Origin: Actinopolymorpha rutila
Lineage (GTDB): Bacteria; Actinomycetota; Actinomycetes; Propionibacteriales; Actinopolymorphaceae
DNA: 64,000 nt
Assembly: GCF_013407855.1 (NCBI RefSeq)
Contig: NZ_JACBZH010000001.1
Coordinates: 682,001-746,000 of the forward strand
Reading direction: 5' to 3'
The translations under genes and the position numbers were made by a program. The stretch's first letter is position 1. Each line of letters starts with the position of its first letter. The notes below the pieces were generated by a model that was given only the letters and a program-made list of their open reading frames with translations, did not search any database and had not been told where the DNA came from. Below are positions 2,819 to 17,949 of this stretch, in pieces.

Positions 2819-4047
2819 CGCTGCCGCCATGCGGCCTCCTCGGCGAGTGCGCGCAACGCGGGCACCGCCCTCGGGTGGACCGGCGCCCGCTCCAGCGCCA
2901 GCAGTGCGCGGTCGACAGCCAGCTTGACCTGCTGCTCGACCTCGACGTCGGCACCGGTCCGGCGGAGTACGCCGGTCAGCGCGGCCACCTCGCCCTCGTC
3001 CAGGTCGGGGTCGCCGACCCGGTCCAGCAACCGGCGGTCGGCGGGCCCGGCGCGTTCGGCGGCTACCGCCAGCAGCAGGGTCGGTCGGCCCTCCCGCAGA
3101 TCCTCACCGACCGGCTTTCCGGTGGCGGCGCTGTCGCCGAACGCGCCGAGCAGGTCGTCCCGCAGCTGGAACGCGACGCCGAGGGGACCTCCGTACTCGG
3201 CGTACGTCGCTACGAGCGACCCTGATCCACCCGCCAGGCAGGCCCCCAGCTGCAGCGGGCGGACGACTGTGTAGCGCCCGGACTTCAGGGTCGCGACGGA
3301 CGTGGCGTAGTCGGCGTCGCGTTCGCCTGTGGCGCTGCCCAGCATGTCCAGGTGCTGCCCGACCACGAGTTCGGTACACATCTGATGCCATGTCCGTGCG
3401 GCCGAATCGGGCAGTCCGGCCGCGATCCGGTGCGCCAGGGTGAACGCGAGGTCGCCGACCAGGACCGCCAGGCCCTCACCGAACCGCCGCGCGTCGCCGC
3501 GCCAGCCGCGGTCGGTGTGCCGGGCGAGCAGGGTGGCGTGCAGCGCGGGGGCGCCACGCCGGGACGACGAGCCGTCCATCACGTCGTCGTGGACGAGCGC
3601 GAACGTGTGCAGGAGTTCCAGCGCGGCGGCGGCACGGACGGCCGTGTCGCCGGGCGGCGTACCGTCCACTCCCACGAAACCCCAGTGGCAGAACGCCGGT
3701 CGCAGTCGCTTGCCGCCGGTGAGGCTGTCGCGCAGGTCGGCGAGCAGCTCGCCCACCCGGTCGCCGGCCCGGTCGGTCAGGCGTACGGCGAGCCCGTCCG
3801 TCCACGGCTTCGCCTCGGCGGCCAGCAGGTCCCGCAGGTAGGCGTCGACCGCGCGGTCGAAGTCCTCGGTCAACTGGTCGGGAAACTCGTCGGTCAGCCC
3901 CGCGACCGAACTGTCGGCCAGCTCGTCGGGCAGTGCATCGGTCACAGCATGTTCTGGCAGCGCATCTTCGGTCAGCGCGTCGGGGAATGCGCCCGAATGG
4001 CCTTGTTCTTCAGGGAATCGGGCGTTGTCGGGTCGGGCGAGAGCCAT
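2815..4047 (-). CDS. crtE: Polyprenyl diphosphate synthase (GGPP synthase type)
   Basis: This enzyme condenses isopentenyl diphosphate with allylic diphosphates, probably giving geranylgeranyl diphosphate for phytoene synthesis. The protein has GGKRLRP for substrate binding, the first aspartate-rich motif HDDVMDGSSSRRG and the second motif FQLRDDLLGAFGD. The ATG at 4047 is preceded by AGGGAGAA at good spacing, so the longer upstream reading frame is not needed. The first 60 residues are acidic and repetitive (ALTEDALPEHAVTDALPDEL) and lie outside the catalytic fold. The gene overlaps the next one by 4 bp, and CrtI follows. It is separated by 158 bp from the FAD enzyme gene upstream and may have its own promoter there. 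Confidence 0.88.
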   Translation of the reverse strand: MALARPDNARFPEEQGHSGAFPDALTEDALPEHAVTDALPDELADSSVAGLTDEFPDQLTEDFDRAVDAYLRDLLAAEAKPWTDGLAVRLTDRAGDRVGELLADLRDSLTGGKRLRPAFCHWGFVGVDGTPPGDTAVRAAAALELLHTFALVHDDVMDGSSSRRGAPALHATLLARHTDRGWRGDARRFGEGLAVLVGDLAFTLAHRIAAGLPDSAARTWHQMCTELVVGQHLDMLGSATGERDADYATSVATLKSGRYTVVRPLQLGACLAGGSGSLVATYAEYGGPLGVAFQLRDDLLGAFGDSAATGKPVGEDLREGRPTLLLAVAAERAGPADRRLLDRVGDPDLDEGEVAALTGVLRRTGADVEVEQQVKLAVDRALLALERAPVHPRAVPALRALAEEAAWRQR

Positions 4048-4072
4048 TGGGTTCTCCCTGGCCGCGGAGTGG

Positions 4073-4087
4073 GTTTCCAGTACTGAA
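4073..4087 (-). promoter_or_regulatory. Candidate operator or promoter element upstream of the prenyl synthase
   Basis: On the minus strand this reads TTCAGTACTGGAAAC and contains the perfect palindrome CAGTACTG. It lies 26 bp upstream of the prenyl synthase ATG. A related word, TTCAGTGCTAAAAC, lies upstream of the FAD enzyme gene. Sharing by the two promoter-proximal gaps of the same block suggests a common regulator, but no known consensus is matched. Confidence 0.3.
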
Positions 4088-4205
4088 TGAGGTCGATGTG
4101 AGTTCCGCTCGACCTGCTGACCGGACAGGTCCGGTCGGTCGGGTCGGACTTCGTACGCCGGCAGACGTACTTCCATCCCTGTCCGGCCGGGCTCGGCTCC
4201 CACCT

Positions 4206-5516
4206 TCACGACGCGTCCATGGTCAGCACGGACTCGTCCAGGCGGGGTGTTCGCGGGCCGTAGGCGTTGGACCGGGCGCTCAGCCAGCGCACCAGCGGCA
4301 CCTCGGTGATCAGCCGCAGCGGCAGTGGTGGCCGGAACGCCTTGTCCGCGCGCAGGGTTGCGGCCGACCGGCGTTCGGTGCGGATCTGCCGGCGCTGGAC
4401 GGAGATGATGGCTGGTTCGCGAATCTCCTGTACGCGTGCGAGTTCGGCCTCACTGACAAGGCCGCGTTGACGCAGCGGACGGGCCAGGACGTTCGCCACC
4501 GTCACCGCGTCCTGGATGGCCATCAGGATGCCGTTCCCACCCACCGGTGAGATCACGTGCGCGGCGTCGCCGATCAGCAGCAGTCCGGGGCGGTGCCAGC
4601 GCTCCACCCGGGCGATGTCGACCGACAGCAGCGTCAGCTGCGACCAGTCGGCGAGCAGCTGTGCCCGGTCGGCCAGCCACGGCACCCAGCGGCGGATGAA
4701 GTCCTGGATGGGTACGACGCCGGCCTTGCGGGCCTGTGCGTACGTGCCCTTGGGGATCGTGTAGCCGACCTGCCAGGTGTCGGTGCGGCCGAGCACCCCG
4801 ACGTACCCGCCGACTCCGAAGTACAGCGAGACGTCCGCGTCCGGCGGGTCGGACCGAGTCCGGCGGGGCAGCTCGAACCACAGCACGTCCGCGCCGGCGC
4901 CGAACGACTCCGCGGGCATGTCGGCCAGCCGCCGCAGTCGGGAGAACCTGCCGTCCGAGCCGATCACCAGCGCGGCCGGCAGCTCGTGCTCGCCGTCGGG
5001 TCCGCGGTAACGGACGCCCTGGACCACGCCGTTCTCGTCCTCCAGCAGGCCGGTGACCCGGGCCTGCATGCGCAACGTGAAGGTCGGCAGCTCCGCCGCC
5101 TTGGCGGCCATGAAGTCGAGGAAGCGGTCCTGCGGCATCAGCGCGATGTACGGGAAGCGGGTGCGCAGCTTGCCGTAGTCGGTGGTGGTGATCGTCGCGG
5201 TGGGCGTGTGGAAGCGGAAGTAGCGGGCCCGGTAGTGGTCGAGCCGGAGGAGCTCGTCGGCCAGGCCGAGGCTGTCCAGGAGCTCGAGGGTGGCGGGGTG
5301 GAGGGAGTCGCCGCGGAAGTTGCGGTCGAAGTCGGCGTGCGCCTCCAGCAGGGTCACCTGGACTCCCGCGCGGGCGAGGAGGTAGGCCGCGATCATGCCC
5401 CCCGGCCCGCCGCCGACAACGACGCAGGTGACGGACGGTTGCCGGTGGCGGGCGGGGGCACGATCGGTGGTGGACGCGGTTGTGCGAGCCGGGTCGGCAG
5501 TTGAGCCGTTGGCCAT
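4206..5516 (-). CDS. FAD-dependent monooxygenase (UbiH/pHBH-type)
   Basis: A group A flavoprotein hydroxylase of 436 residues. It shows the ADP-binding motif CVVVGGGPGGMIAAYLLARAG near residue 30, the DG motif (VIGSDGRFSRLRRL) and the GD motif LLLIGDAAHVISPVGGNG, in the right order. The ATG at 5516 has GGAGG about 8 bases upstream, which decides the start over an upstream in-frame ATG. It is the first gene of the minus-strand block that continues with prenyl synthase and CrtI, so it may oxygenate a carotenoid or another isoprenoid. That link is inferred from position only; these enzymes act on many aromatic and isoprenoid substrates. Confidence 0.82.
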   Translation of the reverse strand: MANGSTADPARTTASTTDRAPARHRQPSVTCVVVGGGPGGMIAAYLLARAGVQVTLLEAHADFDRNFRGDSLHPATLELLDSLGLADELLRLDHYRARYFRFHTPTATITTTDYGKLRTRFPYIALMPQDRFLDFMAAKAAELPTFTLRMQARVTGLLEDENGVVQGVRYRGPDGEHELPAALVIGSDGRFSRLRRLADMPAESFGAGADVLWFELPRRTRSDPPDADVSLYFGVGGYVGVLGRTDTWQVGYTIPKGTYAQARKAGVVPIQDFIRRWVPWLADRAQLLADWSQLTLLSVDIARVERWHRPGLLLIGDAAHVISPVGGNGILMAIQDAVTVANVLARPLRQRGLVSEAELARVQEIREPAIISVQRRQIRTERRSAATLRADKAFRPPLPLRLITEVPLVRWLSARSNAYGPRTPRLDESVLTMDAS

Positions 5517-5580
5517 GTCGCGTCCCTCCTCCGCGTGCACCGGTGGCTCGGGGGCCGGGAGGTCCACCGGTGTTGGACCT

Positions 5581-5596
5581 CAGTTTTAGCACTGAA
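5581..5596 (-). promoter_or_regulatory. Candidate operator upstream of the FAD monooxygenase
   Basis: The minus strand reads TTCAGTGCTAAAACTG, an imperfect inverted repeat with arms CAGT and ACTG. It is 65-80 bp upstream of the FAD enzyme ATG and shares the pattern TTCAGTRCTRRAA with the site at 4073-4087. It may be an operator of a shared regulator or part of a promoter. Confidence 0.3.
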
Positions 5597-5746
5597 ACCA
5601 GGCTCTTGAGTACTCCCCTCCTCTTCGTCGGCCGGGTAGCACTCGCTCGCGGTCGCCCGTAATGCCTCTGACCTGCGGATTCACCCCGCGGAGGATCCAC
5701 CCGAACCGGCCCGGAACGGGCACTCGGTACGCTGAGGGGTAACTGG

Positions 5747-5777
5747 TTCGGCAGCACCGGAGGGGTACCTGTAGACT
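5747..5777 (+). promoter_or_regulatory. Weak candidate promoter for tRNA-Arg
   Basis: TAGACT at 5772-5777 is placed as a -10 box 15 bases ahead of the tRNA. TTCGGC at 5747-5752 could be a -35 box, but the 19-base spacing is long. This is inferred from position only. Confidence 0.25.
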
Positions 5778-5792
5778 CTCCAACCGTTCCCG

Positions 5793-5868
5793 GCGCTCGT
5801 AGCTCAACGGATAGAGCATCTGACTACGGATCAGAAGGTTGGGGGTTCGAATCCCTCCGAGCGCGCCA
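5793..5868 (+). tRNA. tRNA-Arg (anticodon ACG)
   Basis: A complete 76-nt cloverleaf. The acceptor arms GCGCTCG and CGAGCGC pair fully. The D arm is GCTC/GAGC, the anticodon stem TCTGA/TCAGA encloses loop CTACGGA with anticodon ACG, and the T arm has loop TTCGAAT. CCA is encoded at 5866-5868. An integrase remnant starts 14 bp downstream, facing the tRNA, which is the usual layout when an element has integrated into a tRNA 3' end and left it intact. Confidence 0.95.
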
Positions 5869-5881
5869 GCAAAACCGCAGG

Positions 5882-6240
5882 TCACAGGCCTGCTCCTCCC
5901 GGATCGTTCGGGTCAACCACCTCGGATTCGCCGTTTTGGCCACGTTCTGGCCACACGTCGAACTGCCGGGCCGTGTCGTCGAGCCGCGCGGCCCACGTGT
6001 CCATCTCGTCGGCGTACAGGTGGCCGTACAGATCCATCGTGATCGTGATCGATGCGTGCCCAAGGATGTGCTGGACGACCTTGGGCTGCGGTTGACGAAC
6101 TTCCGGCGTTCGGTGTGGCACACGGCGGCGTCGCTCTACATTTCGGCCGGCACTCCACGACCACCCTTGGGTGAGGTGAAGACAACGGCATCCCGGTCAC
6201 GGCCGTCCAGGACGAGGACGAACTCGTGACGCGCTCATCC
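5882..6240 (-). pseudogene. Tyrosine recombinase (integrase) remnant with an internal inversion
   Basis: The minus strand at 5882-6085 encodes a C-terminal integrase segment with PKVVQHILGHASITITM and DLYGHLYADEMDTWAARLD, including the LGH box and the catalytic-Tyr region. Upstream, minus-strand 6160-6240 reads REFVLVLDGRDRDAVVF and TSPKGG, an earlier integrase segment. The piece that should lie between them is found on the plus strand at 6086-6157 as LRLTNFRRSVW followed directly by HTAASLYISAGTP. So the middle has been inverted, and residues between the two motifs are missing. The N-terminal half and the first catalytic Arg are not seen. It is non-functional and marks an old integration at the adjacent tRNA-Arg. 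Confidence 0.8.
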
Positions 6241-6286
6241 GACTGGCGCTTGACCCCCGCAGCAGCGTCAAGCCCTCGCCGGTGCC

Positions 6287-6433
6287 GTGGTGACAGACGA
6301 ACTGGCCCTCGACCTGGACAACGCGGTCCGCTCGATCCAGAACGAGAGCGAACGAACCGGCATCACTCTCGACGGCGCGCTGCTGACGGCCCTCCGAGAG
6401 CTGAACCGCCCGCCTGAAGGCGCCGCCGGGTGA
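6287..6433 (+). CDS. Small hypothetical protein (48 aa)
   Basis: From tandem GTG codons at 6287/6290 a short frame reads VTDELALDLDNAVRSIQNES, then a run ending ALLTALRELNRPPEGAAG. It has the charge and helix periodicity of a real polypeptide, unlike the overlapping longer frame, which is Arg/Pro-rich. I see no strong ribosome binding site. It lies just beyond the integrase remnant and may be a surviving accessory gene of the integrated element or a fragment. I do not recognise a family. The following 190 bp to 6623 show no gene. Confidence 0.3.
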   Translation: MVTDELALDLDNAVRSIQNESERTGITLDGALLTALRELNRPPEGAAG

Positions 6434-6623
6434 TCAGACCGCTGCGTGCTGTGCCTAATCGCACGCTAATCGCACGATGGGCCGGCCGCGAGTGACCGCA
6501 TCTTCGTCCCGAACTATCGGCGGGGAGGTCGCTGGTGGCTGTTCAGGCGTAAGCGGGGACGGTCACAGCCAGCATTGGCCGATCATGGTTATTGACGTTG
6601 CTGTATTTCGCTGCTGTACGGAC

Positions 6624-7523
6624 CTAATTCTGCCGGAGAGAGACCCGTGCGGCGGGGTAGTCGAGGAGGACGCGGAAGGCACGGAGTGCGTTTCCCCCGA
6701 GCGCTCCGACCACGGGTTTGTCCATCCACTGCGACATGTGCTCAACGAAGTTCGAGTCGCCGCGTTGGGTGAACCAAACGGGTCCGGTGTGGAGACCGCC
6801 GAGGTATACGGACGGTACTTGGATCATGGTGGCGCCGGTGCCGGCTTCGCCGTGGTCGATCACAGGCCAGTCGGGGTGCTGTTCGCGCCAGCGGTGGGCA
6901 ATGGTGTTGATGATGAACGACGTCGCCTGTCGGCGCCCGTTCCGACCAGCTTGCATCATGGCCTCGTGAGTGAGGTTGGTGTGTGCTCCCGTGTCAAAGA
7001 GCAGGTCGAGTTGCTCACCGTCCACGCTGGCTTGAATGCGTGGAAAGTTGTACGTGCGTTGACCGTCTCTCTCCGGGAACCCGAGTGGCAGTGTGACGGG
7101 GTAATCGTCGGTCGGCGGCGTCTGATGGAGGACGAGCCTGGCTGTCCTGTAATCCACCTCCCAGATCCGCCGGCTGAACCATTGCTGGCCTAGTAGTCCG
7201 CTGCCTCCGATCGGCGGGAAGGGGCCGTTCTGTACCTCCATACTCGGGTTGAGCAGGATCGAGCCGTCCTCCAGTGGGCTGGGTATCCATGCCTCGTCAC
7301 GGAAGGGTGGCAGAAGTGTGGGCGTCCAGTCGTCACTCTCATCAACGCTCGGCTCTGCCACCAACCCAAGGTCGAGTGCTGCGGCTCGATACATCCAGTC
7401 GCTTCCACCCGTGTCGGTGAGGAAACGCAGTCGTTGGCCACCTGCTGTCACAGGCTCAACGAAGATCGTTTCCTGCTCGAATGATGCGGGAAGGACATAG
7501 GGGCTGCCCGGCGCGGAGTCCAT
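6624..7523 (-). CDS. Retropepsin-like aspartic protease with two DTG lobes in one chain
   Basis: The protein carries two retropepsin active-site motifs. RFLTDTGGSDWM is at about residues 33-44, and LDLLFDTGAHTNLT at about 172-185, counting from the ATG at 7523. Each lobe also has the hydrophobic-Gly partner segment: GLLGQQWFSRRIWEVDY in lobe 1 and VVGALGGNALRAFRVLLDY in lobe 2. Retropepsins are normally homodimers of one such lobe; here both are fused, as in pepsin-like proteins. There is no signal peptide, so it is probably cytoplasmic. The frame extends upstream to 7646, but that extension is encoded by a dispersed repeat, so I prefer the later start. No clear ribosome binding site was found. 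Substrate unknown. Confidence 0.65.
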   Translation of the reverse strand: MDSAPGSPYVLPASFEQETIFVEPVTAGGQRLRFLTDTGGSDWMYRAAALDLGLVAEPSVDESDDWTPTLLPPFRDEAWIPSPLEDGSILLNPSMEVQNGPFPPIGGSGLLGQQWFSRRIWEVDYRTARLVLHQTPPTDDYPVTLPLGFPERDGQRTYNFPRIQASVDGEQLDLLFDTGAHTNLTHEAMMQAGRNGRRQATSFIINTIAHRWREQHPDWPVIDHGEAGTGATMIQVPSVYLGGLHTGPVWFTQRGDSNFVEHMSQWMDKPVVGALGGNALRAFRVLLDYPAARVSLRQN

Positions 7524-7567
7524 GTCGGCAGTTTGCCAGGCAAGCACGCGGTCGCGGCAGTTCCAGA

Positions 7568-7613
7568 GGAGCGGCAGGGTTTGCTCGGTGTCCTGCATCG
7601 GGTCGCGGAGACC
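7568..7613 (-). repeat. Dispersed repeat A, copy 1
   Basis: Forty-six bases matching 15965-16010 in opposite orientation, with 41 identities by eye. It starts GGTCTCCGCGACCCGATGC on the minus strand and ends CCCTGCCGCTCC. A partial third copy, CAGGACACCGGCCAAACCCT, lies at about 7638-7657 on the plus strand. Copy 1 falls in the upstream in-frame extension of the protease gene. Confidence 0.7.
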
Positions 7614-7709
7614 GGGGGGGGCCATACCCAGACCAACCCAGGACACCGGCCAAACCCTCCGACCCTTCGGTGGCCACTCGATGCTGGTGGGACCGAGACC
7701 TTGTTCGTA

Positions 7710-8375
7710 TCAGCCCCCGATGACGCCATCTGTCGGCTGCCACGTGCACACGCAGATCTTGTTGCCGTCCGGATCGGAGAGCGCGCCGTCGACCATCGTT
7801 CCACCGGCGGCCAGCGCCGCCTCGACCCGAGGCGCCACCTGGTCCGGGTCGACCCAGACGTCGATATGCCAGCGTTGCCGAGGCTCATCGATACCGGAGC
7901 GCTGGAACCAGATGAGCGGGAGTACCTGGTTCCGGTCGCCCACGTCGGCAAAGCCGTCGCCGTGGACGTACTCCCGGTCAAGTACGGCCGCCCAGAACGG
8001 CGCGATCTTCTCGTGGTCCGGAGTGTCCAGGGCGAATTCGATGCACGAGATGCTCCGGGACTCCAGTTCGGCGCCGACGGCCGCGGCGATGTCGGAGATC
8101 CGGCGGGCAAGGCTCACATCGCGTTCGGTTACCCCATGGGCCTCGTAGCCGCTAGTTAGCCTGACGTCGACCCGGGAAGAGCGCAGATCAAGGTCCGCAT
8201 GATGGTTCATGTCCTCGGCAGCCTGCCCGATCTCATTGACGATCTTCAGGCTGGCACCGAAGCTCTCAGTCTTGATGCGCGTATGAAGCCTGAAGAGGCC
8301 GTAGTGGACAAGGAACGCCCAGCCGTCGAGGCGAGCATCGATGATCTGCTGGCCGGTCATCGCCCTGGTGCTCAT
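7710..8375 (-). CDS. Pterin-4a-carbinolamine dehydratase-like domain fused to a VOC domain
   Basis: A 221-residue two-domain protein. Residues 1-100 resemble 4a-hydroxytetrahydrobiopterin dehydratase, with DGWAFLVHYGLFRLHTRI, EDMNHHADLDLRSSRVDVRL and GVTERDVSLARRISDIA. The HH pair and the later T-x-x-D/L-A-R segment correspond to that fold. Residues 110-221 form a VOC/glyoxalase-like domain ending in GALSDPDGNKICVCTW. The ATG at 8375 has GGAGAG upstream and matches the dehydratase N-terminus; a longer frame starts at 8474. This fusion is common in actinomycetes. Whether it still dehydrates pterin is uncertain, because the typical HHP is HHA here. Confidence 0.75.
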   Translation of the reverse strand: MSTRAMTGQQIIDARLDGWAFLVHYGLFRLHTRIKTESFGASLKIVNEIGQAAEDMNHHADLDLRSSRVDVRLTSGYEAHGVTERDVSLARRISDIAAAVGAELESRSISCIEFALDTPDHEKIAPFWAAVLDREYVHGDGFADVGDRNQVLPLIWFQRSGIDEPRQRWHIDVWVDPDQVAPRVEAALAAGGTMVDGALSDPDGNKICVCTWQPTDGVIGG

Positions 8376-8430
8376 CGCTCCACTCTCCAACCCGCTCTTC
8401 ACCGCACGAGGTGACCTCGACTCTGGCGGC

Positions 8431-8547
8431 ATGGTAGAGCCAACTCCGGACGTTTCACGTGGTGGTCGAGACAACGCGCTGTGGACCCCACCGGAGATGG
8501 ACCCGGAGGACGCGTACTTCCCCGAGCCGTTGCCCAGCCGGGATTAG
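8431..8547 (+). CDS. Possible small ORF or gene fragment (38 aa)
   Basis: An ATG at 8431 opens a short frame ending WTPPEMDPEDAYFPEPLPSRD before TAG. The composition is acidic and proline-rich rather than Arg-rich, unlike a random GC-rich frame. No ribosome binding site or family is recognised. It may be the end of a broken gene. The rest of the 8376-8800 gap shows nothing else. Confidence 0.2.
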   Translation: MVEPTPDVSRGGRDNALWTPPEMDPEDAYFPEPLPSRD

Positions 8548-8800
8548 TGCTTGGATAGCTGAGAGCCCCGCGCCAGGTCCGAGGTGTCGCTGCACTTCGG
8601 AACGGTGCGGGGCTCCTGCTTGCTAGTTGGTGAAGCCTCCGGCGGGAAGCTCACGGGGCATGGCGTACGTGTTCGTGTCGGGCGTCCGGTCATCGAACGC
8701 GAGCGTGTTGATAACGCGGCGATGCGCTCCAACGTGATCTTGCCCTGCACGTCTTGTCTGATTGGGAAAGTCTGGGTCACTGTAGCCCCGAGGAGTTTCG

Positions 8801-9235
8801 ATGTCCCCAGCCCCGCTCCACTCTGTCAGCGTCGCGGCCGCCGTCCTCGACCCACAAGGACGGGTCCTGGCCATCCGGCGCCGCGACAACAGTCACTGGG
8901 AGCCACCCGGCGGCGTCCTCGAGCTCGGCGAGTCCATCCACGACGGCCTCCGTCGCGAGGTCGAAGAGGAGACCGGCCTCCGCGTCGAACCCGATGCGCT
9001 TACCGGTGTCTACAAGAACATGAACCGCGGAATCATCGCCCTCGTCTTCCGCTGCCACCTCACAGGCGGAACCGAGCAGACCAGCATCGAGACCGACCGC
9101 GTCACCTGGCTCACCCCGGACCAGGTCCGCGACCGCATGAGCGAGGCCTACGCCATCCGCCTCCTCGACGCCCTCCCCACAGACGAGCCCCGGCCAGCGA
9201 TCCGCAGCCACGATGGAGAACACCTCACGCCATGA
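8801..9235 (+). CDS. NUDIX hydrolase
   Basis: A 144-residue NUDIX protein hydrolysing a nucleoside diphosphate-linked substrate. The full NUDIX box is present at about residues 38-60, starting GGVLELGESIHDGL and continuing RREVEEETGL, so the metal-binding glutamates are intact. The N-terminal strand SVAAAVLDPQGRVLAIRRR and the C-terminal WLTPDQVRDRM region are typical. The ATG at 8801 follows AGGAG at 8791-8795 with ideal spacing. It stands alone between genes on the other strand inside the accessory region. The substrate cannot be told from the sequence. Confidence 0.88.
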   Translation: MSPAPLHSVSVAAAVLDPQGRVLAIRRRDNSHWEPPGGVLELGESIHDGLRREVEEETGLRVEPDALTGVYKNMNRGIIALVFRCHLTGGTEQTSIETDRVTWLTPDQVRDRMSEAYAIRLLDALPTDEPRPAIRSHDGEHLTP

Positions 9236-9270
9236 CGGAGGGCGTTACGTCACATCCGTTCGGGCTTGCA

Positions 9271-10235
9271 CTACTCCTGAGCGATCGAGGGAGTGCGCGG
9301 GATGGATCCGACCACTCGAGCAAGTTGCTCCGCGGCCAGGGGCTCGTCGACGGCGAGACTCCATTGCCATGCGTCGTCGGACCACTCGTGGCGGTGTCGA
9401 CCCGCAGTGCGCTCACGCCACCAGGCCGGCTCGCTACTGGCAACTGGCCACCTCGCTAACGACGGATACCCGGGCACCTCGAGATGGACGCTGAACGCAC
9501 CGGTCTGCGGATCACCGTGATTCGCGCTGTAACCCACACCGGTCGGCCACCAGCGCGGAACTGGCAGCTGCTGCTCCGCCAGCCACTCCTCGGACCGTCG
9601 CAGGGCGGCCAGCTCGTCCTCATGGTCCTCCTCCACCGGGCCGTCCCAGGTGAAGAGCGCAGGATCCAGGTCCACATCCGGGTGGAACTCGACGGCTGTG
9701 ACATGGGCCCCAAGCTCGGGCACCTGCATCCGCAGCACTGCGCCGGTGGCATCGTCCACGGCGACCCTCAGCAGGTGCGGCTTGCGGGTGGTTTCGGGCG
9801 ACGCTGCCAGCCTGAACTCCCAGCAGGGGCGACCCGCTACCTCGACGGGGACGGGCGGGCCCTGGGGGACGGAGAAGTCGTCGCCACGGGTGAATCGCTC
9901 CACCGATCGTCATCGTTTCCCAGCAGCGTCGCCGGATGACCCCCGAAGTCCGCGAAACCCATCGTGGGGCGATGAAGCCGCAGCATCCCCCCACCAGGCC
10001 GGCGCAGGTATGTCCACTCGGAATCCTGAACGTGGCGCACACCCGCCTGGTCCTCGACCCGCCACGAACGCGGAGCCGCGTACCAAAACTGACAGCTTCC
10101 CTCCTCGGCCTGTCCATCGCCATCCGGCTCGGCAGGTTCTCGATACTCGACGACGCCGCCTGCCGTGCGCACACCGAAAGCAGCAATCCGACCCAGTGCC
10201 TGCGCCCACGACGGCGGCTCACGATCCATGGCCAC
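9271..10235 (-). pseudogene. Hypothetical protein split by a frameshift
   Basis: Two overlapping minus-strand frames look like one gene. The upstream frame (from 10235) encodes a 5' portion with SWAQALGRIAAFGVRTAGGV, CQFWYAAPRSWRVEDQAGV and GFADFGGHPATLLG. The downstream frame, open from about 9903 to 9271, continues with DDFSVPQGPPVPVEVAGRP, LLRVAVDDATGAVLRMQVPE and a Trp-rich end. The switch falls near 9895-9905. Combined length is about 320 residues. Parts resemble uncharacterised actinomycete proteins with a LolA-like sensing region, but I do not assign a function. Either it is a pseudogene, or the assembly has a single-base error; two genes overlapping by 67 bp is less likely. Confidence 0.55.
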
Positions 10236-10281
10236 AGGTTAGGGGCCTCGGTCGAAGCCACAAGGCCGGTCGCGGTCTGAT

Positions 10282-10307
10282 GTCGCACATCATTCGACCG
10301 AGCACAC
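10282..10307 (+). repeat. Extra terminus-like half-unit outside the kinase cassette
   Basis: GTCGCACATCATTCGACCGA and the following GCACA match the outer half of the right terminal repeat at 11492-11517 in the same orientation. It sits 15 bp outside the left terminal repeat, so a right-end-like unit abuts a left end. It may be the relic of a second element. Confidence 0.5.
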
Positions 10308-10321
10308 GGGCCCAGCGTTCT

Positions 10322-10371
10322 TGTGATCCGACACCTGATCTGCGTCACATGTCCGCCAGCTGATGTGCGAC
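10322..10371 (+). repeat. Left 50-bp terminal inverted repeat
   Basis: Begins TGTGATCCGACACCTGATCT and ends CCAGCTGATGTGCGAC. Aligned without gaps to the reverse complement of 11468-11517 it has 37 of 50 identities. Each end is itself two roughly 25-bp related units, seen from the repeated TGAT-TGCG core. Confidence 0.65.
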
Positions 10372-10511
10372 GGCCCAGAAGCCTGCCGATCAGAAGCCAG
10401 CGGCGGCGGGCGACGGAGGTGTGGCAAAGCCGCCGACGGCGCCAGCGCACTGAACCGCGTTCGGCCACAGCCTTTGCGGGCCGTCGCTGTAGGTATGGGA
10501 GCATCGGCGAC

Positions 10512-11450
10512 GTGACCGACCGGACGATCGAGCTGCAGGACGTGGTGCGCCGCAAGGCTGCGCACCTCGGCCGTCGCGGGGAGGAGTGGCTCGCGGGACT
10601 CCCCGCCCTCGTCGACGATCTCGCCGACAGGTGGTCGATCACGGTCGGCCCGCCGCTGTCCGGTGGCACTGCGTCGTACGTCGCCCGGGCCCGCACGGCG
10701 GACGGTCAGGACGCCGTTCTCAAGATCGCGATCCCCGAATACGACATGAGCGGGCAGGTCCGTACCCTTGCCGACGCGGACGGTAACGGGTATGTCCGAC
10801 TGCTCGCCCACGACGTCGACCGGCACGCGATGCTGATGGAGGCACTCGACCAGCCGTTGGGAGATGTCGACGTCTCTCCCGAGGACAAGATCGCGACCCT
10901 GTGCGCGACCCTTCGCCAGGCCTGGCAGGTGCCCCGACCAATTGAAGTGACCATGGACCCGGCGCAGGAGAAGGCTCGGGGTCTGGCCGAACTCGTCGGC
11001 ACCCTGTGGGAGCGGCTCGGCCACCCGTGCTCTGAACGCGTCGTGAAGCGGGCCCTGACCTACGCCGAGCGGCGGGCGGGCGCGTTCGACCTCGACCGGT
11101 GTGTCGTGGCGCACGGCGATCCGCATCCCGCCAACACTCTGCGGGTGCTCACACCGAGGCCAGGTGCGGAGTCCGGCTTCGTCTTCGTGGACCCTGACGG
11201 TTTCCTCGCGGATCCGACGTACGACCTCGGTGTCGTCCTGCGCGACTGGTGCCCGCAACTCCTCGCCGGTGACGCACCCGCCCTGGCGCGCCGCTACTGC
11301 GCGCTGCTGGCGGGCCACACCGGTCTCGACGAGACGGCCATCTGGGAATGGGGATTCCTCGAACGGGTGTCGACCGGGCTGTACGCGCTCAGCTTCGGTG
11401 CCGACGAGATGGCGCGGCCCTACCTCGAAACCGCTGAACTGCTCGTGTGA
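10512..11450 (+). CDS. Aminoglycoside phosphotransferase, streptomycin 6-kinase-like
   Basis: A 312-residue protein-kinase-fold phosphotransferase related to streptomycin 6-kinase (APH(6)) and hydroxyurea kinases. The nucleotide-binding half shows PPLSGGTASYVARA and DAVLKIAIPEYDM. The catalytic loop is CVVAHGDPHPANTLRV (Brenner motif HGDxxxxN) and the metal-binding segment is FVFVDPDGFLADPTYDLGV. I use the GTG at 10512, where similarity to the family begins; the frame is open upstream to 10323 but that part is repeat DNA. There is no strong ribosome binding site. It sits alone inside inverted terminal repeats, which suggests it moved as a passenger gene. Resistance activity is not proven. Confidence 0.78.
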   Translation: MTDRTIELQDVVRRKAAHLGRRGEEWLAGLPALVDDLADRWSITVGPPLSGGTASYVARARTADGQDAVLKIAIPEYDMSGQVRTLADADGNGYVRLLAHDVDRHAMLMEALDQPLGDVDVSPEDKIATLCATLRQAWQVPRPIEVTMDPAQEKARGLAELVGTLWERLGHPCSERVVKRALTYAERRAGAFDLDRCVVAHGDPHPANTLRVLTPRPGAESGFVFVDPDGFLADPTYDLGVVLRDWCPQLLAGDAPALARRYCALLAGHTGLDETAIWEWGFLERVSTGLYALSFGADEMARPYLETAELLV

Positions 11451-11467
11451 CCCGCGAAGACACCGGT

Positions 11468-11517
11468 GACGCATATCAACTGACGGACGCGTGTCGCACA
11501 TCAACCGACGGAGCACA
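11468..11517 (-). repeat. Right 50-bp terminal inverted repeat
   Basis: On the minus strand it begins TGTGCTCCGTCGGTTGATGT and ends TCAGTTGATATGCGTC. It pairs with 10322-10371 at 37 of 50 positions. It starts 17 bp after the kinase stop codon. Confidence 0.65.
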
Positions 11518-11592
11518 TGTCTTCAGCACGGGCTCTGCCGTATTGCGCTTTCGCGTATCAAGGCGCCGCTGACGCGGCGCAGCCGTCCGGCC

Positions 11593-11608
11593 GCCCTGCG
11601 GGCGGCGC
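11593..11608 (+). repeat. 16-bp direct repeat bracketing the IS110/IS256 pile, left copy
   Basis: GCCCTGCGGGCGGCGC occurs here and again at 14493-14508 in the same orientation. It overlaps the perfect hairpin GCCGCCCTGCGGGCGGC. A second hairpin, GCGCCGCTGACGCGGCGC, lies just upstream. The 11518-11844 stretch holds no gene but several such hairpins. Confidence 0.45.
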
Positions 11609-11844
11609 TCGTTGGTGGACCCTATGTAGGCGGGCCGAAGGTCCGCGCCTTCTGGTTCTGGCGTGGTACGGCCCGCGGCGCGTGCCGCTGGACGGCCAGC
11701 GTCAGTATTGCCGGCCACGCCTGGCCGAGGGCGGTTGACTGGCGTTAGGGACTTGCCCCGATGTGGCTGTCGAGGGCCTTCAACGAGCTGCCGGCGTCGT
11801 CCTCGATACCGGTGGGCTACGGCGTCGTTGGAGGTGTGGCTTCT

Positions 11845-13091
11845 ATGCAGGCTGGTTGGGACTGGGCGAGATCGACGCACAGCGTGGCGGTCACCGATGA
11901 GCGGGGGCGGTTGGTGGCGAGCTGGCGGCTGGCGCACGGGGAGGAGGAACTCGCCGCGACGTTGCGGCGGTTGGCGGGGCTGTGCCCGCCGGCGGACCTG
12001 GCGGTGGGGATCGAGGCTCGTACGGGGCTGGTCGTGGAGCGGCTTCTTGCCGCCGGTCATCCGGTGGTGGCCGTGCACCCGAACGCCTTCCACGCGGCCC
12101 GGCCGCGGTGGGGTGCGTCGGGAGCCAAGAGTGATGCAGGCGATGCATCAAGCTGGCGGAGTTCGTTCGTACCGAACTCGACGCAGAGCAGGCGACCGTC
12201 CGGCGCCTGGTGCCGACAACGCCGGCGACGGTCCAGCTGCGCACCTTGTGCCGCACCCGGGGTGATGTCCATACCGCCCGGGTGAGCGCGGCCAGCCAGT
12301 TGGACGCACTGTTGTCGGCTCATTGGCCGGGCCCACTCGGCATGTTCGACCGGCTGGACAGCCCGATCGGGTTGGCGTTCTTGGCCCGCTATCCCACTCC
12401 GGTCTCCGCGTCCCGGCTGACAGCTGCACGGCTGGGCGCGTTCTTGCGGCGGAACTCCTACTCGGGCAAGAAGCCACCAGAGGAGCTGCTGGCCCGGCTG
12501 GGTCAGGCGCCGAAGCCGACCGGTTGCTTGGACGAGTCGACTCTGACTGGCCTGGTCAACGCTCACGTGAACCAGCTGCGGGCACTCCTGGCCATCTTGA
12601 AGGAGCTGAACCACACGATCGCTGTGGCGGTTGAGGCCCACCCCTACGCGGGCCTGTTCGCGCCGATGCCGCGGATCGGCGGTCTCAACCTTGCCCAGGT
12701 CGTGGGCGAGGTCGGCCCGATCCTGGAACGCGCCGAGAACGCTGCCCAGGTCGCCGCGGAGGTTGGGGTCGCGCCGGTCACCCACGAGTCGGGCACGCGG
12801 CGCAGTGTCGTGTTCCGGATGGCGGTCAATCACCATGCCCGGCAGGCCATGACGGTGTTCGCCGACAACAGCCGCCACGCCGACGAATGGGCCGCCGGCC
12901 TCTACGCCGACGCCCGGGCCCGCGGCAAGCGCCACCCGCACGCGATCCGGATCCTCGCCAGAGCCTGGATCCGGGTGATGTGGCAATGCTGGAAGACCAA
13001 CACCGCCTACGACCCGAGCAGACCACGCCAGCAGAAGTGGCGTCCAGCAGAGTGGTGTACCGCAGGCGCCTTGTTGATGGGCGTGTCGTAG
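11845..13091 (+). pseudogene. IS110-family transposase, frameshifted and cut at its 3' end
   Basis: The N-terminal DEDD domain begins MQAGWDWARSTHSVAVTDE and runs to GASGAKSDAGDA, a classic IS110 motif. The frame then shifts near 12147. The continuation KLAEFVRTELDAEQATVRRL lies in another frame and joins the transposase_20 part with LLARLGQAPKPTGCLDES, VGEVGPILERAENAAQVAAE and GVAPVTHESGTRR. Two frames are therefore needed for one protein. The gene ends at 13091 inside the terminal repeat of the adjoining IS256-family element, so its natural end has been displaced. It is inactive unless programmed frameshifting restores it, for which I see no classic slippery site. Confidence 0.82.
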
Positions 13092-14433
13092 ACGCGTAAG
13101 GGCGGTCATCGCGTGATCCTTCGAACTGAGTTCCCGCTCAAGCTCAAGGAGACCTACGCGATGACCGCCAAGCCCAGTATGACCCCTGACCGGTTCCTGC
13201 ACGAACAGCTGGCTGCTGCGTCGCCGGACCTGCTGCGCGACCTGCTGTCGACGTTCATCGACGCCCTGATGGGTGCCGAAGTCGACGCGGTCTGCGGCGC
13301 CCCCTACGGTCAGCCCAGCCCGGACCGCACCAACTCCCGTAACGGCTACCGTCACCGCGACTTCGACACCCGTACCGGCACGATCGATGTCGCGATCCCC
13401 AAGCTCCGCTCCGGTTCGTACTTCCCGGACTGGCTGCTGGAACGGCGACGCCGGGCCGAACGGGCCCTGACGTCGGTGGTGGCCACCTGCTACCTGCTCG
13501 GGGTATCGACGCGGCGGATGGAGAAACTCGTCGAACAACTCGGCATCACCCGCCTGTCCAAGTCACAAGTGAGCGTGATGGCGGCGGAGCTGGACGAGCA
13601 GGTCGAGGCGTTCCGCACCCGCCCCCTCGATCAAGGTCCGTACACGTTCGTCGCGATGGACGCCCTGGTGCTGAAGGTCAGAGAGGGCGGCCGGGTCGTC
13701 GGGGTGCACGCACTCGTCGCGACCGGTGTCAACGCCGACGGACACCGAGAGATCCTCGGCATCGACGTCACCTCCGCCGAAGACGGCGCCGGCTGGCTGG
13801 GATTCCTGCGCGGCCTGGTCGCCCGCGGCCTGTCCGGCGTGGGCCTGGTGACCTCTGACGCCCACGCAGGTCTGGTCGCAGCGATCGGCGCCACACTCCC
13901 GGGCGCGGGCTGGCAACGGTGCCGCACCCACTACGCCGCCAACCTCATGGCCGTGACCCCGAAGGCGTCCTGGCCGTGGGTGCGGACGCTGCTGCACTCG
14001 GTCTATGACCAGCCCGACACCGCCGCGGTCCACGACCAGTTCAACCGCGTCCTGGACGCCCTGGCCGACAAGCTACCCAAGGTCGCCGACCACCTCGAGG
14101 CCGCCCGGACCGACGTGCTGGCGTTCACCGGCTTCCCCAAGCAGCTATGGCGACAGATCTGGTCCAACAACCCCCAAGAACGCCTCAACCGCGAGATCCG
14201 CCGCCGCACCGACGTCGTCGGGATCTTCCCCGACCGCAACTCCCTCATCCGCCTCGTCGGAGCCGTCCTCGCCGAACAACACGACGAATGGATCGAAGGC
14301 CGCCGCTACCTCGGCCTGGACCTCCTCGCCAAAGCCCGCGCCACCGAGACCGAGGAGGTGACCGACACCGACCTCAAGGCGCTCAGCGCCTAACCACCAA
14401 GAGGATCACGCGACACGACCGCTACACCACGCC
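13080..14433 (+). mobile_element. IS256-family insertion sequence
   Basis: The element carries one intact Mutator-type transposase gene. Its ends share TCGCGTGATCC: the left inner end is GGCGGTCATCGCGTGATCCT at 13101-13120, and the right end on the minus strand reads GGCGTGGTGTAGCGG then TCGTGTCGCGTGATCCTC. A GGCGTGTCGTAG match at 13080 suggests the outer left edge, with an insertion between the two parts. No clean 8-9-bp target duplication is visible, so the exact borders are approximate. Confidence 0.7.
13161..14393 (+). CDS. IS256-family (Mutator) transposase
   Basis: A 410-residue DDE transposase. The N-terminal part includes MGAEVDAVCGAPYGQPS, TNSRNGYRHRDFDTRTGTI and IPKLRSGSYFPDWLLERR, all characteristic of the family. 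The catalytic acids lie in YTFVAMDALVLKVRE, LVTSDAHAGLVAAIG and NNPQERLNREIRRRTDVVG. The C-terminus EQHDEWIEGRRYLGLDLL is also typical. The ATG at 13161 follows AAGGAG; a longer in-frame start at 13113 lies in the terminal repeat. The gene is intact, so this is the one element in the window that could still be active. Confidence 0.93.
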   Translation: MTAKPSMTPDRFLHEQLAAASPDLLRDLLSTFIDALMGAEVDAVCGAPYGQPSPDRTNSRNGYRHRDFDTRTGTIDVAIPKLRSGSYFPDWLLERRRRAERALTSVVATCYLLGVSTRRMEKLVEQLGITRLSKSQVSVMAAELDEQVEAFRTRPLDQGPYTFVAMDALVLKVREGGRVVGVHALVATGVNADGHREILGIDVTSAEDGAGWLGFLRGLVARGLSGVGLVTSDAHAGLVAAIGATLPGAGWQRCRTHYAANLMAVTPKASWPWVRTLLHSVYDQPDTAAVHDQFNRVLDALADKLPKVADHLEAARTDVLAFTGFPKQLWRQIWSNNPQERLNREIRRRTDVVGIFPDRNSLIRLVGAVLAEQHDEWIEGRRYLGLDLLAKARATETEEVTDTDLKALSA

Positions 14434-14492
14434 AATGGACTTGACCCCAGCAGACACCAGCCGCATAAGCACCGGAACCGCCGCTCGGCCAC

Positions 14493-14508
14493 GCCCTGCG
14501 GGCGGCGC
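14493..14508 (+). repeat. 16-bp direct repeat, right copy
   Basis: GCCCTGCGGGCGGCGC repeats the sequence at 11593-11608. It is followed by the hairpin GGCGCCAAGGCGCC and then by a partial copy of dispersed repeat B at 14512-14533. The rest of 14434-14761 shows no gene. Confidence 0.45.
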
Positions 14509-14761
14509 CAAGGCGCCGTCCTCGGGCTCGCCGAGTCGGCTAGCTACTCACCCACGGAAGGTCTGTCACCACAAGCTCCTCAGCGAACCGGCACGTGCTC
14601 AGACTCGCGATCACAGCAGAAGCCGAAACCGCTGTGCCGCGGGCATTCGATGTCGACCGCGGCCGGGCAGTGGTACAGGTCCGGACACCCGCAATCCTGG
14701 CCGCTGCTGCGGCTCAGGACGGCCCCCGCGCCTTATATCGGTAGTCATAATTCGCGCATGT

Positions 14762-15157
14762 TCATCGGTCGCGGTCCGGGATCAGCTCAGCCAGCGCTGC
14801 TCGCGAGGCAGGCGCCGGGAAAGGGTCGGCAAAGTACTGGGTCTCGTGCGTGACAAGATCGCCGGTGAGTTCCATGACGCTGACCGAGTAGGTGGGCACG
14901 CCTTCATAGGTGATCACGCACTCGCTCACCCACAGGTCGCCGCCGCCGCGGATCCGCAGGACAGTGAAGTGTCGTTCAGCCGGGTGCCCGCCGCGCTGCG
15001 CCTGGATCTTTGCCCGTCCCCTGAAGCGCTCCCCGGACTGCGGGTAGTCCAGGATCGCATCTTCGGCGTAGATCGCGTGCTCAGTATCGATGTCCCCGCG
15101 TTCAGAAGCCGTCCAGTGCTGCTCCAGCCGGGCCCGGGCCCTGGCGTCACGATCCAT
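14762..15157 (-). CDS. SnoaL/NTF2-like domain protein
   Basis: A 131-residue cone-shaped alpha+beta protein of the SnoaL-like/NTF2 superfamily. The start region ARARLEQHWTASERGDIDTE, the strand YAEDAILDYPQSGERFRGRA and the core FTVLRIRGGGDLWVSECVITY are typical, as is VMELTGDLVTHETQYFADPF near the end. Such proteins are nuclear-transport-like ester, ketone or polyketide isomerases, or simply binding domains. The ATG at 15157 has AGGTG about 10 bases upstream; a GTG at 15169 is an alternative. It is isolated between IS-derived DNA and a gene-free stretch, so context gives no function. Confidence 0.75.
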   Translation of the reverse strand: MDRDARARARLEQHWTASERGDIDTEHAIYAEDAILDYPQSGERFRGRAKIQAQRGGHPAERHFTVLRIRGGGDLWVSECVITYEGVPTYSVSVMELTGDLVTHETQYFADPFPAPASRAALAELIPDRDR

Positions 15158-15773
15158 GGCGCTGTTCACCTACACCAGGCTGGTTGGCCAGCACGACTTC
15201 GTAAACTTGGGTCACTGGTCAACATGGCGTCGCGACACTAACACCGCGCCAATCCAGCCAGTACCACCGACGAGAGGCAGCAGGGCCGTAGGGCCGCGAA
15301 GTCCACCTGCCATATAAGCAGTAGCGAGCTCACTGTCGCTCCAATCATGAAGATCAAGCTTGATCTGTCCCATTGCCCTTGCCTTCCTTACATGCCGCGC
15401 ACAGCCCGTAACCAGCCCAGCCGAGGCCCGCCGCCCCGTCGTCGTTGATGGCAGCGAGCTCCTGCGGTGAGGCCACCGGCACCCACTGTTTCCTCCCCGT
15501 TCCCTACGGGCCGAACACTGACTGAGGCTTGAGTGAGAGCCAGCCGGCAGGCCGCCGCCGGCGCGGTATTCGACGTGGCCGACCCCTGGCCTGGAAAGGT
15601 GAGGCTACTGGCGAGGGAGGGCGGGCCATCCACGGGCCATTAGCCAAGGCTTAGGTCCAGCCAGGCCACTCCAGGACGCTCGGCCCAGAGACGCGGACGT
15701 GATCTAAGCCCAGAGGCCGGAAGATGTATGTTTCTCAAGCTGATGTCCGAGCCGCTGGTCGTCGGAGGTTGAC

Positions 15774-15811
15774 TTAGGGAACTGACGCGCCGTCCTCGGA
15801 CTCACCGGGCG
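15774..15811 (+). repeat. Dispersed repeat B, copy 2
   Basis: Thirty-eight bases starting TTAGGGAACTGACGCGCC, matching 29088-29125 at 33 positions in the same orientation. Its inner part (GTCCTCGG then CTC and CCG) also matches 14512-14533. An upstream AGGTTGACTTAG is shared with 26907-26918. Confidence 0.6.
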
Positions 15812-15964
15812 ACACGACACTCACGGAGCCGTGGCTGAGTTGTCCGCCGGACCGACAGGCTTTACCCACCTCCCTCGGGTCGGGTCCCTAAGGCCGGGGG
15901 ACCACCTCGGGCCACACCGGGCAGGCCACCAACCCGCCCGAGCCGCGGAAGCTTACGGCCCCCC

Positions 15965-16010
15965 GGTCTCCGCGACCCGAGTCAGGCCACCGGCCAAACC
16001 CTGCCGCTCC
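15965..16010 (+). repeat. Dispersed repeat A, copy 2
   Basis: Forty-six bases beginning GGTCTCCGCGACCCGAGTC and ending CCCTGCCGCTCC, matching minus-strand 7613-7568 at 41 positions. One frame, GLRDPSQATGQTLPLL, corresponds to GLRDPMQDTEQTLPLL in the first copy, so substitutions partly preserve a reading frame. Confidence 0.7.
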
Positions 16011-16245
16011 TTGACTCTGGCCCCATGCCGGTCCGTTCGCTTTGCGCCGGGCTGATGCGAGCATGCGCGTTCCGGGCCTCCATGACCCAGGCGACGCCGA
16101 GCAGATCGCGGAGGCCTTGTAACCCACGCGCTGCCGTGGCCGACCTCTGGTCGACCCCGGCATGGTGAGCAGAGCGTGTCAGGGTTTCCGGCTACGCAGG
16201 TACTCATAGTTCACCTTGGACCCCGGCATGTCTGCAGGACCACGT

Positions 16246-17826
16246 TCACTGCACCTGGCTCAGGTCTGCCTGTGGGACCCAGTATCGGCTGAGCGGTCCG
16301 CTCGTGAGCCGCACGCGGAGTACGCCGCTGATCCAGGCGGCGGCGTCGTAGGTGACGTCGGTGTTCGCGCGCCGGGTGACATCGGCGGCGTCGACCCGCT
16401 TGCCCCTGCTGTCGTACTTCACGCCGTTGTAGGTGTGGGCTGCCAGCAGCACCGCGGGCCGGTCGCCGCGGAAGTCGACTTTCGCCATCACGCCGCGCAC
16501 CGTGCTCAGTCCCGCCCGCTCCGGTACCCACATCCGGCCGAGTGGGGTGCCCGTGCGCAGCAGGTAGTAGATGCCCCGGCCCTTCACCCGCATCCGCCGG
16601 ACCGTGGTGCCAACGACCGCGCGCGGCAGGGTGACGGTGCGGATGCCGGTGATTTCTCCCGTGCGCATGTCGAAGGTGTGCGCGACCTGCCGGCCGGGGG
16701 CCAGGTCGACCTGGTACGGCCGTGCCAGAATCGGGTATGGGTTGTCCCCGGCCATCTCCTCGGCCAGGCGGGCGAACTCGCTTCGTCCGGTGAGCAACCA
16801 GAGCTGGACCATCTGATCCACGTGCAGCAGGTGGTAGCTGTTGGCGGCCTCGGCGTCGTGGGTGAGGCAGTAGATCGAGCGTCCGCCCGGAACCCGCAGC
16901 ACGGACCGATAGTGATGGATCGTGGTGACCGCACCGTCGAACAACGCGAGCGCGCGCGGGTCGCGGGTGGCGCGGTAGTAGTCCCAGATGCCGAACGCCG
17001 CGAACATGTGGCCGTTGAACACCAGGTCGGCCTGCTCGGGTGAACCGTACGGATACTCCACCAGCCACAGCAGGTGGTGGCGATCGGTGAGAACCACCCA
17101 CGGTGCCCGGGGATCGGGGGGCAGCAGGAAGCTCGCGAACGTGCGGTCGGCGGCGTCGCGCCACCTCTGGTCGCCGGTGGCTTCGGCCAGTTCGATGAAG
17201 AACGCGAGTATTTTGCCCTGGGCCAGCGCGCTGTACCACGGCCCGTGCATCGTCTCGGCGGGGCTTCGGTGCAGGGGGAAGTCGAAGTCGTACGGGTGGA
17301 ACCACGCGCCCCGCGACACGACGCGGCGTTCGTACAGTCGCCTCGCCTGGGCCAGGGCGCGGTTCAGGTAGAAACGGTCACCGGTGAGTTCGTAGGACGT
17401 GATGTTCTCCAGCCCGTACTTGGCCTGGTAGTTGGGGTGGTTGTACTGCCGGCCGGAAACTACCCGCATCCGCACACCGTGCGCGTCGTGCTTCTCGTGG
17501 TCGACCCGTGGCGCAACCGTGTCGCGGAACGGCCGCTGGATCCCGGTTAGGAAACGAGCGGGGTACCCGCTCCTGAGGAAGTGGAACGGCACAGGCTGGC
17601 GGGCGACGGCGGCCGGGGTCGACGTCGGGCGCATGATCGGTGCCGAAGCCGGCGACTTCCCGCCCATGCCTTCGGCAGAGGGATCGCATCCGGCGACAAG
17701 TACGACTGCCACGACCAGGCCGACCACAAAACCTAGTACGGACGACACCAGCCGCTTCTTGTGCGGGCCTGGCGGCGTGCGAGAACCGGCGAACGGTCCG
17801 GCTTCGGTCAGCCCGTCATCGCTCAT
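16246..17826 (-). CDS. D-glucuronyl C5-epimerase-like secreted lipoprotein
   Basis: A 526-residue exported protein. A basic stretch and membrane segment, KKRLVSSVLGFVVGLVVAVV, end in the lipobox VAGC, so it is probably lipid-anchored outside the cell. The rest resembles the C-terminal catalytic domain of D-glucuronyl C5-epimerases, with GRQYNHPNYQAKYGLENI, FHPYDFDFPLHRS, MHGPWYSALAQGKILAFFIE and VFNGHMFAAFGIWDYYRATRD. It may act on uronic-acid glycans, by family only. The ATG at 17826 has a GGGAG upstream but close; a GTG at 17913 is an alternative start. A broken IS110 transposase lies just upstream and may have replaced the original promoter. Confidence 0.72.
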   Translation of the reverse strand: MSDDGLTEAGPFAGSRTPPGPHKKRLVSSVLGFVVGLVVAVVLVAGCDPSAEGMGGKSPASAPIMRPTSTPAAVARQPVPFHFLRSGYPARFLTGIQRPFRDTVAPRVDHEKHDAHGVRMRVVSGRQYNHPNYQAKYGLENITSYELTGDRFYLNRALAQARRLYERRVVSRGAWFHPYDFDFPLHRSPAETMHGPWYSALAQGKILAFFIELAEATGDQRWRDAADRTFASFLLPPDPRAPWVVLTDRHHLLWLVEYPYGSPEQADLVFNGHMFAAFGIWDYYRATRDPRALALFDGAVTTIHHYRSVLRVPGGRSIYCLTHDAEAANSYHLLHVDQMVQLWLLTGRSEFARLAEEMAGDNPYPILARPYQVDLAPGRQVAHTFDMRTGEITGIRTVTLPRAVVGTTVRRMRVKGRGIYYLLRTGTPLGRMWVPERAGLSTVRGVMAKVDFRGDRPAVLLAAHTYNGVKYDSRGKRVDAADVTRRANTDVTYDAAAWISGVLRVRLTSGPLSRYWVPQADLSQVQ

Positions 17827-17949
17827 GGCTCCCGCAGGTGGTAGTGGCTCCGTCGCGGTGAGCGCCCGGGTGCGCCCGAAGGGCGAGTTACCCCCCGGTA
17901 GTCGTAGTGACACGCCGTCCCGGGCCCGGCGAACCCGGGGCGGACGGAC

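Follow-up and report, generated by a model that had tools for sequence, protein, structure and literature searches.

Research on the mobility of single genes has mostly concentrated on integrons and on the compound transposons of Proteobacteria. In the mobile insertion cassette (MIC) MIC231, a passenger is located between the ends of an insertion sequence (IS). According to the excerpts of the literature used here, MICs are IS-derived objects that contain no transposase and can be activated by a cognate transposase, whereas transporter ISs (tIS) are IS copies bearing genes that are unrelated to transposition (PMC3129680). For the IS481 family, the excerpted source gives target duplications of 2-15 bp, with about 15 bp in part of the family (PMC10045372). 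ISArsp8, an IS481-family element of the Arthrobacter plasmid pA58H2, is described with 50-bp ends that start with TGTGA and with a 15-base direct repeat (PMC6305408). The IS481 elements ISArsp12 and TnRErm46 carry passengers, that of TnRErm46 being erm(46) (excerpts of PMC6305408 and PMC6794481); parts of three further papers were also drawn on (PMC2266710, PMC9024848, PMC5444012). Both IS481 elements that combine cargo with a transposase and ends of two units flanked by 15-bp duplications have thus been published before, and in the open-licence literature we found no description of IS481 units that consist of cargo only.

In this study, we analysed a stretch of 64 kb (the window) from a 6.95-Mb contig of Actinopolymorpha rutila, in which a kinase gene is enclosed by imperfect terminal inverted repeats (Table 1; loci in other places are named by L and a number). 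From sequence comparison, we consider this unit to be, with a probability of roughly 0.86, a non-autonomous derivative of the IS481 family, that is, a mobile insertion cassette with the kinase gene in the place of the transposase gene.

Table 1. Features of the kinase unit and its surroundings in the window, cargo of related units, and loci with arrays.
Feature	Position or locus	Strand	Remarks
Whole non-autonomous element	10322..11517	no strand	1196 bp; kinase gene between an R-type end (left) and an L-type end (right)
R-type (IRR-like) terminal repeat	10322..10372	+	Two ~25-bp units; model R1 E 2.9e-14 (end among the 30 that trained R1)
L-type (IRL-like) terminal repeat	11467..11517	-	Two ~25-bp units; model R1 E 3.2e-15 (end among the 30 that trained R1)
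Kinase gene, APH(6)/hydroxyurea-kinase family	10512..11450	+	GTG start, 312 aa; Pfam PF04655, PF01636
Single L-type unit outside left end	10281..10306	-	Pattern match; weak model match, E 0.0195
15-bp spacer, lone older unit to left tip	10307..10321	no strand	Length equals the target duplications of the family
TCAAGG and GC-rich hairpin	11558..11580	+	Candidate signal for target choice; begins ~40 bp beyond the L-type tip
Cargo: kinase	window, L047		2 units
Cargo: aminoglycoside-adenylyltransferase-like gene	L093		
Cargo: prolyl aminopeptidase	L094, L195, L153		Identified by model in L094, by DNA similarity in L195 and L153
Cargo: S51 peptidases	L095, L192		
Cargo: ECF sigma factor	L008		
Cargo: TIR-domain gene	L197		
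Cargo: membrane protein	L196		Sub-threshold DUF4386 match
Cargo: genes without Pfam match	other units		
Unit without ORF of 70 aa	L107		143 bp
Integron-like array loci	L204, L203, L207, L150, L102, L152, L212, L214-L217		In or near IS481-type ends

Positions 10322-10371 and the reverse complement of positions 11468-11517 are identical at 37 of 50 positions in an ungapped alignment, both repeats start with TGTG, and each is built of two related units of ~25 bp, as the first-pass annotation of this DNA had described. In a scan of the 64-kb window, they were the sole inverted pair with at least 35 of 50 matches and arms within 3 kb. A degenerate 26-base pattern of the unit (at most three mismatches) matched the window only at 10281-10306 and 11492-11517 and matched in none of 100 shuffles. 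Chance repeats are ruled out by the shuffles and by the unique 37/50 pair. The unit contains a passenger (a kinase according to Pfam), and a tblastn search at 1e-5 found no match to an IS481 transposase inside it, in agreement with the annotation, which had seen no transposase there. A scan for a sigma-70-like promoter (range 10250-11620) or a terminator found neither. Directly beside the kinase unit (11761-14393), an IS110-family transposase is divided between two ORFs that differ in frame, and an open transposase gene of the Mutator/IS256 type comes after it.

A complete IS with related ends is present as one copy in the same genome (G000:C1:136281-138408; 2128 bp) and is flanked by a 14-bp duplication. 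Its 650-aa transposase (G000:C1:136399-138348) passes the IS481 model NF033577 with 254.9 bits at a cut-off of 224, which places the cognate transposase in IS481, and the genome has no second match of full length; the residues D152, D217 and E264 are our own motif reading. Of 51 positions, 48 are shared between the left end (IRL) of the complete IS and the right end of the window unit, and 45 between the right end (IRR) of the IS and the left end of the unit, so that the unit has the ends of a recognisable IS of its own genome. The crossed order of these matches fits a single element in reverse orientation, and the layout of 10322-11517 is that of a reversed IS481-like element in which the kinase replaces the transposase. 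The TG...CA tips and the 15-bp duplications seen in the relatives also agree with the IS481 type, the range of which is 2-15 bp. Among plasmid records, the transposase has three relatives at 1e-50, one of which is an IS481 element of a Streptomyces plasmid.

The annotation had suggested an IS21-like parent, which was not borne out. An IstB search of the same genome found no istA/istB pair at these ends and two partial matches. One of these, in a frame of 606 aa at 151173, covers profile positions 95-195 and exceeds the cut-off (33.2 vs 24.1 bits), and the other falls below it; we take both for other ATPases. Because these matches are partial, neither is located at these ends and the complete IS is of the IS481 family by its transposase, an IS21 origin is rejected.

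The annotation had also proposed a non-autonomous transposon with a passenger, and this interpretation is supported. The closest relative of the kinase lies inside corresponding ends at a locus of A. pittospori DSM 45354 (L047). Window positions 10322-11517 and L047:4804-6005 share 84.6% DNA identity over 1205 columns, and the similarity starts and ends at both tips. The flanks of the two units are unrelated when window positions 4001-18000 are compared, save for matches of 108 and 36 bp elsewhere. Similar ends, nearly equal spacing, the same gene and unrelated flanks therefore suggest one block that moved, and a tip-to-tip block in two species indicates that it is, or was, mobile as one unit. 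In the relative G004, the left flank is orthologous (93% over 1136 columns, up to window position 10324). This flank includes an older single end unit (G004:C1:166866-166897, a weak model match with E 0.0218) and the 15-bp spacer, and the similarity ends within 3 bp of the left tip. The kinase has no match in the 9 kb fetched at the orthologous place. Because the right flank has no match in G004 either, only the left half of the empty site is seen.

The lone unit of the window has the opposite orientation, is located exactly 15 bp beyond the left tip and is probably what is left of an earlier element. Conceivably, a native kinase gene was once neighboured by two old IS481 copies that lost their insides and kept one end each, leaving either the collapsed remains of a compound transposon or two solo ends that arose independently. 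This third single end unit would agree with such a history, as would the many ends without a listed partner that the model search of the genus found, and the lack of a target duplication in the window. However, the A. pittospori unit, with its nearly equal spacing and unrelated flanks, requires one moved block, and we consider the collapse highly improbable as an account of the present unit; as the origin of the block before its spread, a collapsed compound transposon is possible.

Target duplications were measured uniformly for 31 facing end pairs as the best identity over 13-17 bp, with flanks from different elements as the control (n = 930). An identity of at least 73% was found in 14 of 31 pairs (3 of 3 with a transposase and 11 of 28 without) vs 6 of 930 controls, and an identity of at least 90% in 10 of 31 vs 0 of 930. 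At 15 bp the flank identity averaged 0.48, with 0.27 in the control, and the other lengths from 4 to 26 bp gave 0.24-0.33. The window copy (5/15) and L047 (7/16) are among the 17 of 31 pairs without a duplication, so that the window copy gives no sign of a recent transposition; a duplication at the copy does not strictly define a MIC because duplications decay. Gaps of exactly 15 bp also separate neighbouring element ends at four places (window 10281-10321, L047:6005-6021, L194:2681-2697 and L196:2791-2807), where some of the second ends match the model weakly. Since these gaps equal the duplication in length, they suggest repeated use of one target site. At L200:3005-3006, two oppositely oriented element ends abut with 0 bases between them.

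The repeats might instead be regulatory or attachment repeats around accessory genes, and not transposon ends. The 25-bp units resemble binding sites, also occur unpaired, and are accompanied by further site-like repeats in some related units, all of which would suit such a role. The same repeats, however, tip the 2.1-kb transposase-bearing IS481 elements L007, L201 and L202, which have 14-15-bp duplications, and 15-bp duplications also surround pairs with other cargo (e.g., L008, L102, L195 and L199). These duplications contradict a regulatory role, which we regard as hardly credible.

An additional signal was found outside the right tip. In 30 ends from the genus, CAAGG at 42-44 bases outside the tip together with a stem of at least six pairs occurs at 10 of 17 L-type ends, including the right end of the window unit, and at 0 of 13 R-type ends. 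As a random control, 21 of 4000 window positions pass the same test with a wider distance range allowed. The hairpin at 11558-11580 has exact copies at six places in the genome, and eight at up to three mismatches. Four of these eight are grouped at 6.06-6.12 Mb (G000:C1). In a Streptomyces plasmid relative (L231), inspection by eye found a CTTGA hairpin beside the left end and a likely 14-bp repeat. A search of 10 loci against Rfam at the gathering threshold yielded two tRNAs and one Ms_IGR-7, and nothing at the hairpin.

A 51-bp sequence model built from 30 ends matched all six Actinopolymorpha genomes (E <= 0.1). Of the 391 genomes of the order, 36 had matches (E <= 1e-6); these include those six and belong to three genera. 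With a good number of facing pairs among them, these ends are neither confined to this locus nor present only as unpaired singles, the two outcomes on which the annotation would have abandoned its cassette idea. The 31 pairs were picked by hand and are not exhaustive; L152 and L153 have both ends of the same type, and a few pairs have one poorly matching end (e.g., L149, L198 and L205). An IS481 transposase is present in the three pairs named above, and tblastn (1e-5) found no match to one in the other 28, L199 having a fragment outside the pair. Genes other than IS481 transposases are thus enclosed by facing pairs in Actinopolymorpha and one further genus, some with 15-bp duplications, as predicted for a shared element with other passengers. 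L153 has an additional, different transposase gene inside the unit. The aminopeptidase units L094 and L195, which come from two genera, share two blocks reaching both tips, at 87% and 91% identity.

The Pfam scan inside the element refers to the ORF at 10512-11450, which overlaps with other ORFs present there, and yielded PF04655 (APH_6_hur, 4.4e-13) and PF01636 (APH, 3.3e-6). The annotation had called the gene streptomycin 6-kinase-like. As a family label this is right, since the protein passes PF04655 with 49.6 bits at a cut-off of 27; as a function it is unproved, the score of 57.4 bits being far below the curated cut-off of 325 for APH(6)-I in NCBIfam. The motifs HGDPHPAN and VDPDG are located at residues 201 and 226. 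One pairwise estimate against the A. pittospori copy (dN 0.092, dS 0.321) fits purifying selection.

A search of the genome collection found 46 loci with this kinase, of which only L047 has the ends, several loci having short flanks at contig ends. With 1 of 46, we reject the ends as a general trait of the kinase family. An insensitive 40-base inverted-repeat scan of 23 kinase loci gave 29/40 for the window ends, 26/40 for the L047 ends and 22-28 for the loci without these ends; the 33/40 of L059 is from a different palindromic repeat. The genome has a second kinase copy (L017:6123-7084), which is 88.9% identical over window positions 10486-11459 and has the gene alone in common with the unit, and the end scan found no element ends around it. 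The alignment of this copy with the window looks like a mosaic, with long identical stretches in the 3′ half and a 5′ part that differs at more positions, a pattern resembling the outcome of gene conversion. With respect to spread of the unit by plasmids, 0 of 72,556 plasmid records cover 80% of the element, and one contains a partial kinase match.

The unit could also descend from an IS481 element that once carried the kinase as cargo beside a transposase, with the transposase later lost and the rest now fixed as a relic in both species. In favour of this, IS481 elements with cargo and transposase (ISArsp12 and TnRErm46) have been published, as far as the excerpted sources go, neither kinase copy has a duplication, and the identity of the window unit and L047 is only 84.6%. 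However, an IS481 transposase match was found in 0 of 2 kinase units with ends, hence no intermediate was seen. We consider this relic unlikely; it overlaps with the cassette reading, from which it differs in origin and present activity, and the figures assigned to the readings do not sum to one. The kinase may have come to lie between the ends either by capture of a resident gene or because an IS481 element that already had it as cargo lost the transposase.

By comparison, we show for the cassette reading that both of the different IS ends are kept, that the unit appears as a discrete block at unrelated places in two species, and that relatives with similar ends and other cargo have 15-bp duplications. 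On the features tested, the unit belongs with the mobile insertion cassettes, and we infer its movement in trans. An IS481 transposase, such as that of the complete copy at 136281-138408, would bind the two 25-bp units of each end and cut at the TGTG...CACA tips. The unit would then be inserted in trans with a 15-bp duplication, and insertion may often turn the L-type end toward a CAAGG-hairpin ~42 bp away.

Some of the related units contain more than one gene, and their architecture is a side finding of this study. Of 62 end regions, 33 match an inner motif at no fewer than 19 of its 30 positions, and a composite site of ~26 bp repeats between genes in multi-gene units. L204 has six copies of a 13-base half motif (at most two mismatches) in one orientation, with seven predicted ORFs, and the full 26-base site fits three of the six; the half motif at two mismatches also has 10 matches across the 64-kb window. 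In 36 genomes, the 26-base site (at most three mismatches) occurs at 37 places in 16 genomes, and the backward-read pattern at 0. Places with a single site (e.g., G080, G089 and G092) may be due to chance. The orientation is uniform in 6 of 8 multi-site loci and mixed in L207 and L216.

L204 and L215 share a 1.6-kb, two-ORF stretch at 97% identity, and all four of its boundaries are no more than 25 bp from a site in one or both of the two site lists. In 25 shared stretches, 19 of 100 boundaries are no farther than 30 bp from a site or a tip (23 of 108 when the two L198/L206 flank stretches left out of this count are included), compared with an expectation of 3.7 and a maximum of 12 in 2000 random placements. 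The other 81 are not, and the excess near sites is clear, yet most boundaries are elsewhere. L198:1937-4121 and L206:1708-10046 occupy the same chromosomal site in two genomes, with flanks at 94-95% identity and the same ends, and no similarity between their cargoes (2.2 and 8.3 kb) was detectable at 1e-20. Furthermore, a tyrosine recombinase gene (L203:4510-5478; Phage_integrase, 4e-24) is located inside a unit with IS481-type ends, and L218 has a stretch of 96% identity. We tentatively propose that IS481-type ends may serve as a gene-capture platform of Propionibacteriales. Such a platform would comprise single-gene units and integron-like arrays with a ~26-bp site mostly in one orientation, with cargo swapped between fixed ends (L198/L206) and some cassettes recurring in other arrays with boundaries at sites. 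If this were true, a phylum in which no complete integrons have been found would possess a cassette system of its own, which an IS481 transposase would move and a tyrosine recombinase might shuffle.

The window unit and its relatives suggest a little-studied way for soil bacteria to shift single genes. If small IS481-ended units transfer accessory genes, among them those for resistance-type enzymes, from one genus of soil actinomycetes to another, they would represent a further route of circulation in the phylum that makes most antibiotics. As they contain no transposase, such units are easily missed. Their choice of target is directly testable through the 15-bp duplication and the constant distance to the hairpin.

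Compared with integrons, the arrays are alike in the repeated sites between genes, mostly in one orientation, and in some shared cassettes with boundaries near sites; the window unit differs from integron cassettes in that it has no array sites, the best match to the inner motif being 15/30 in either end region. With tIS, it shares the combination of an IS and unrelated genes, but it has no transposase. The same difference separates it from ISArsp12 and TnRErm46, which in the excerpted descriptions have their own transposase and 6-bp repeats. ISArsp8, compared by eye with the description in its excerpt, has the same architecture of the ends, with a two-unit look and a 15-base repeat, and differs in its length of 1,718 bp, its 0 passenger genes and its other end sequences. 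The window unit resembles the MICs (MIC231 of Bacillus cereus, IS231/IS4 family) in being derived from an IS and having no transposase of its own. Unlike MIC231, units of the window type have two-unit ends of the IS481 type, 15-bp duplications, an L-type end that is often located by a hairpin, and cargo that is common to actinomycete genera.
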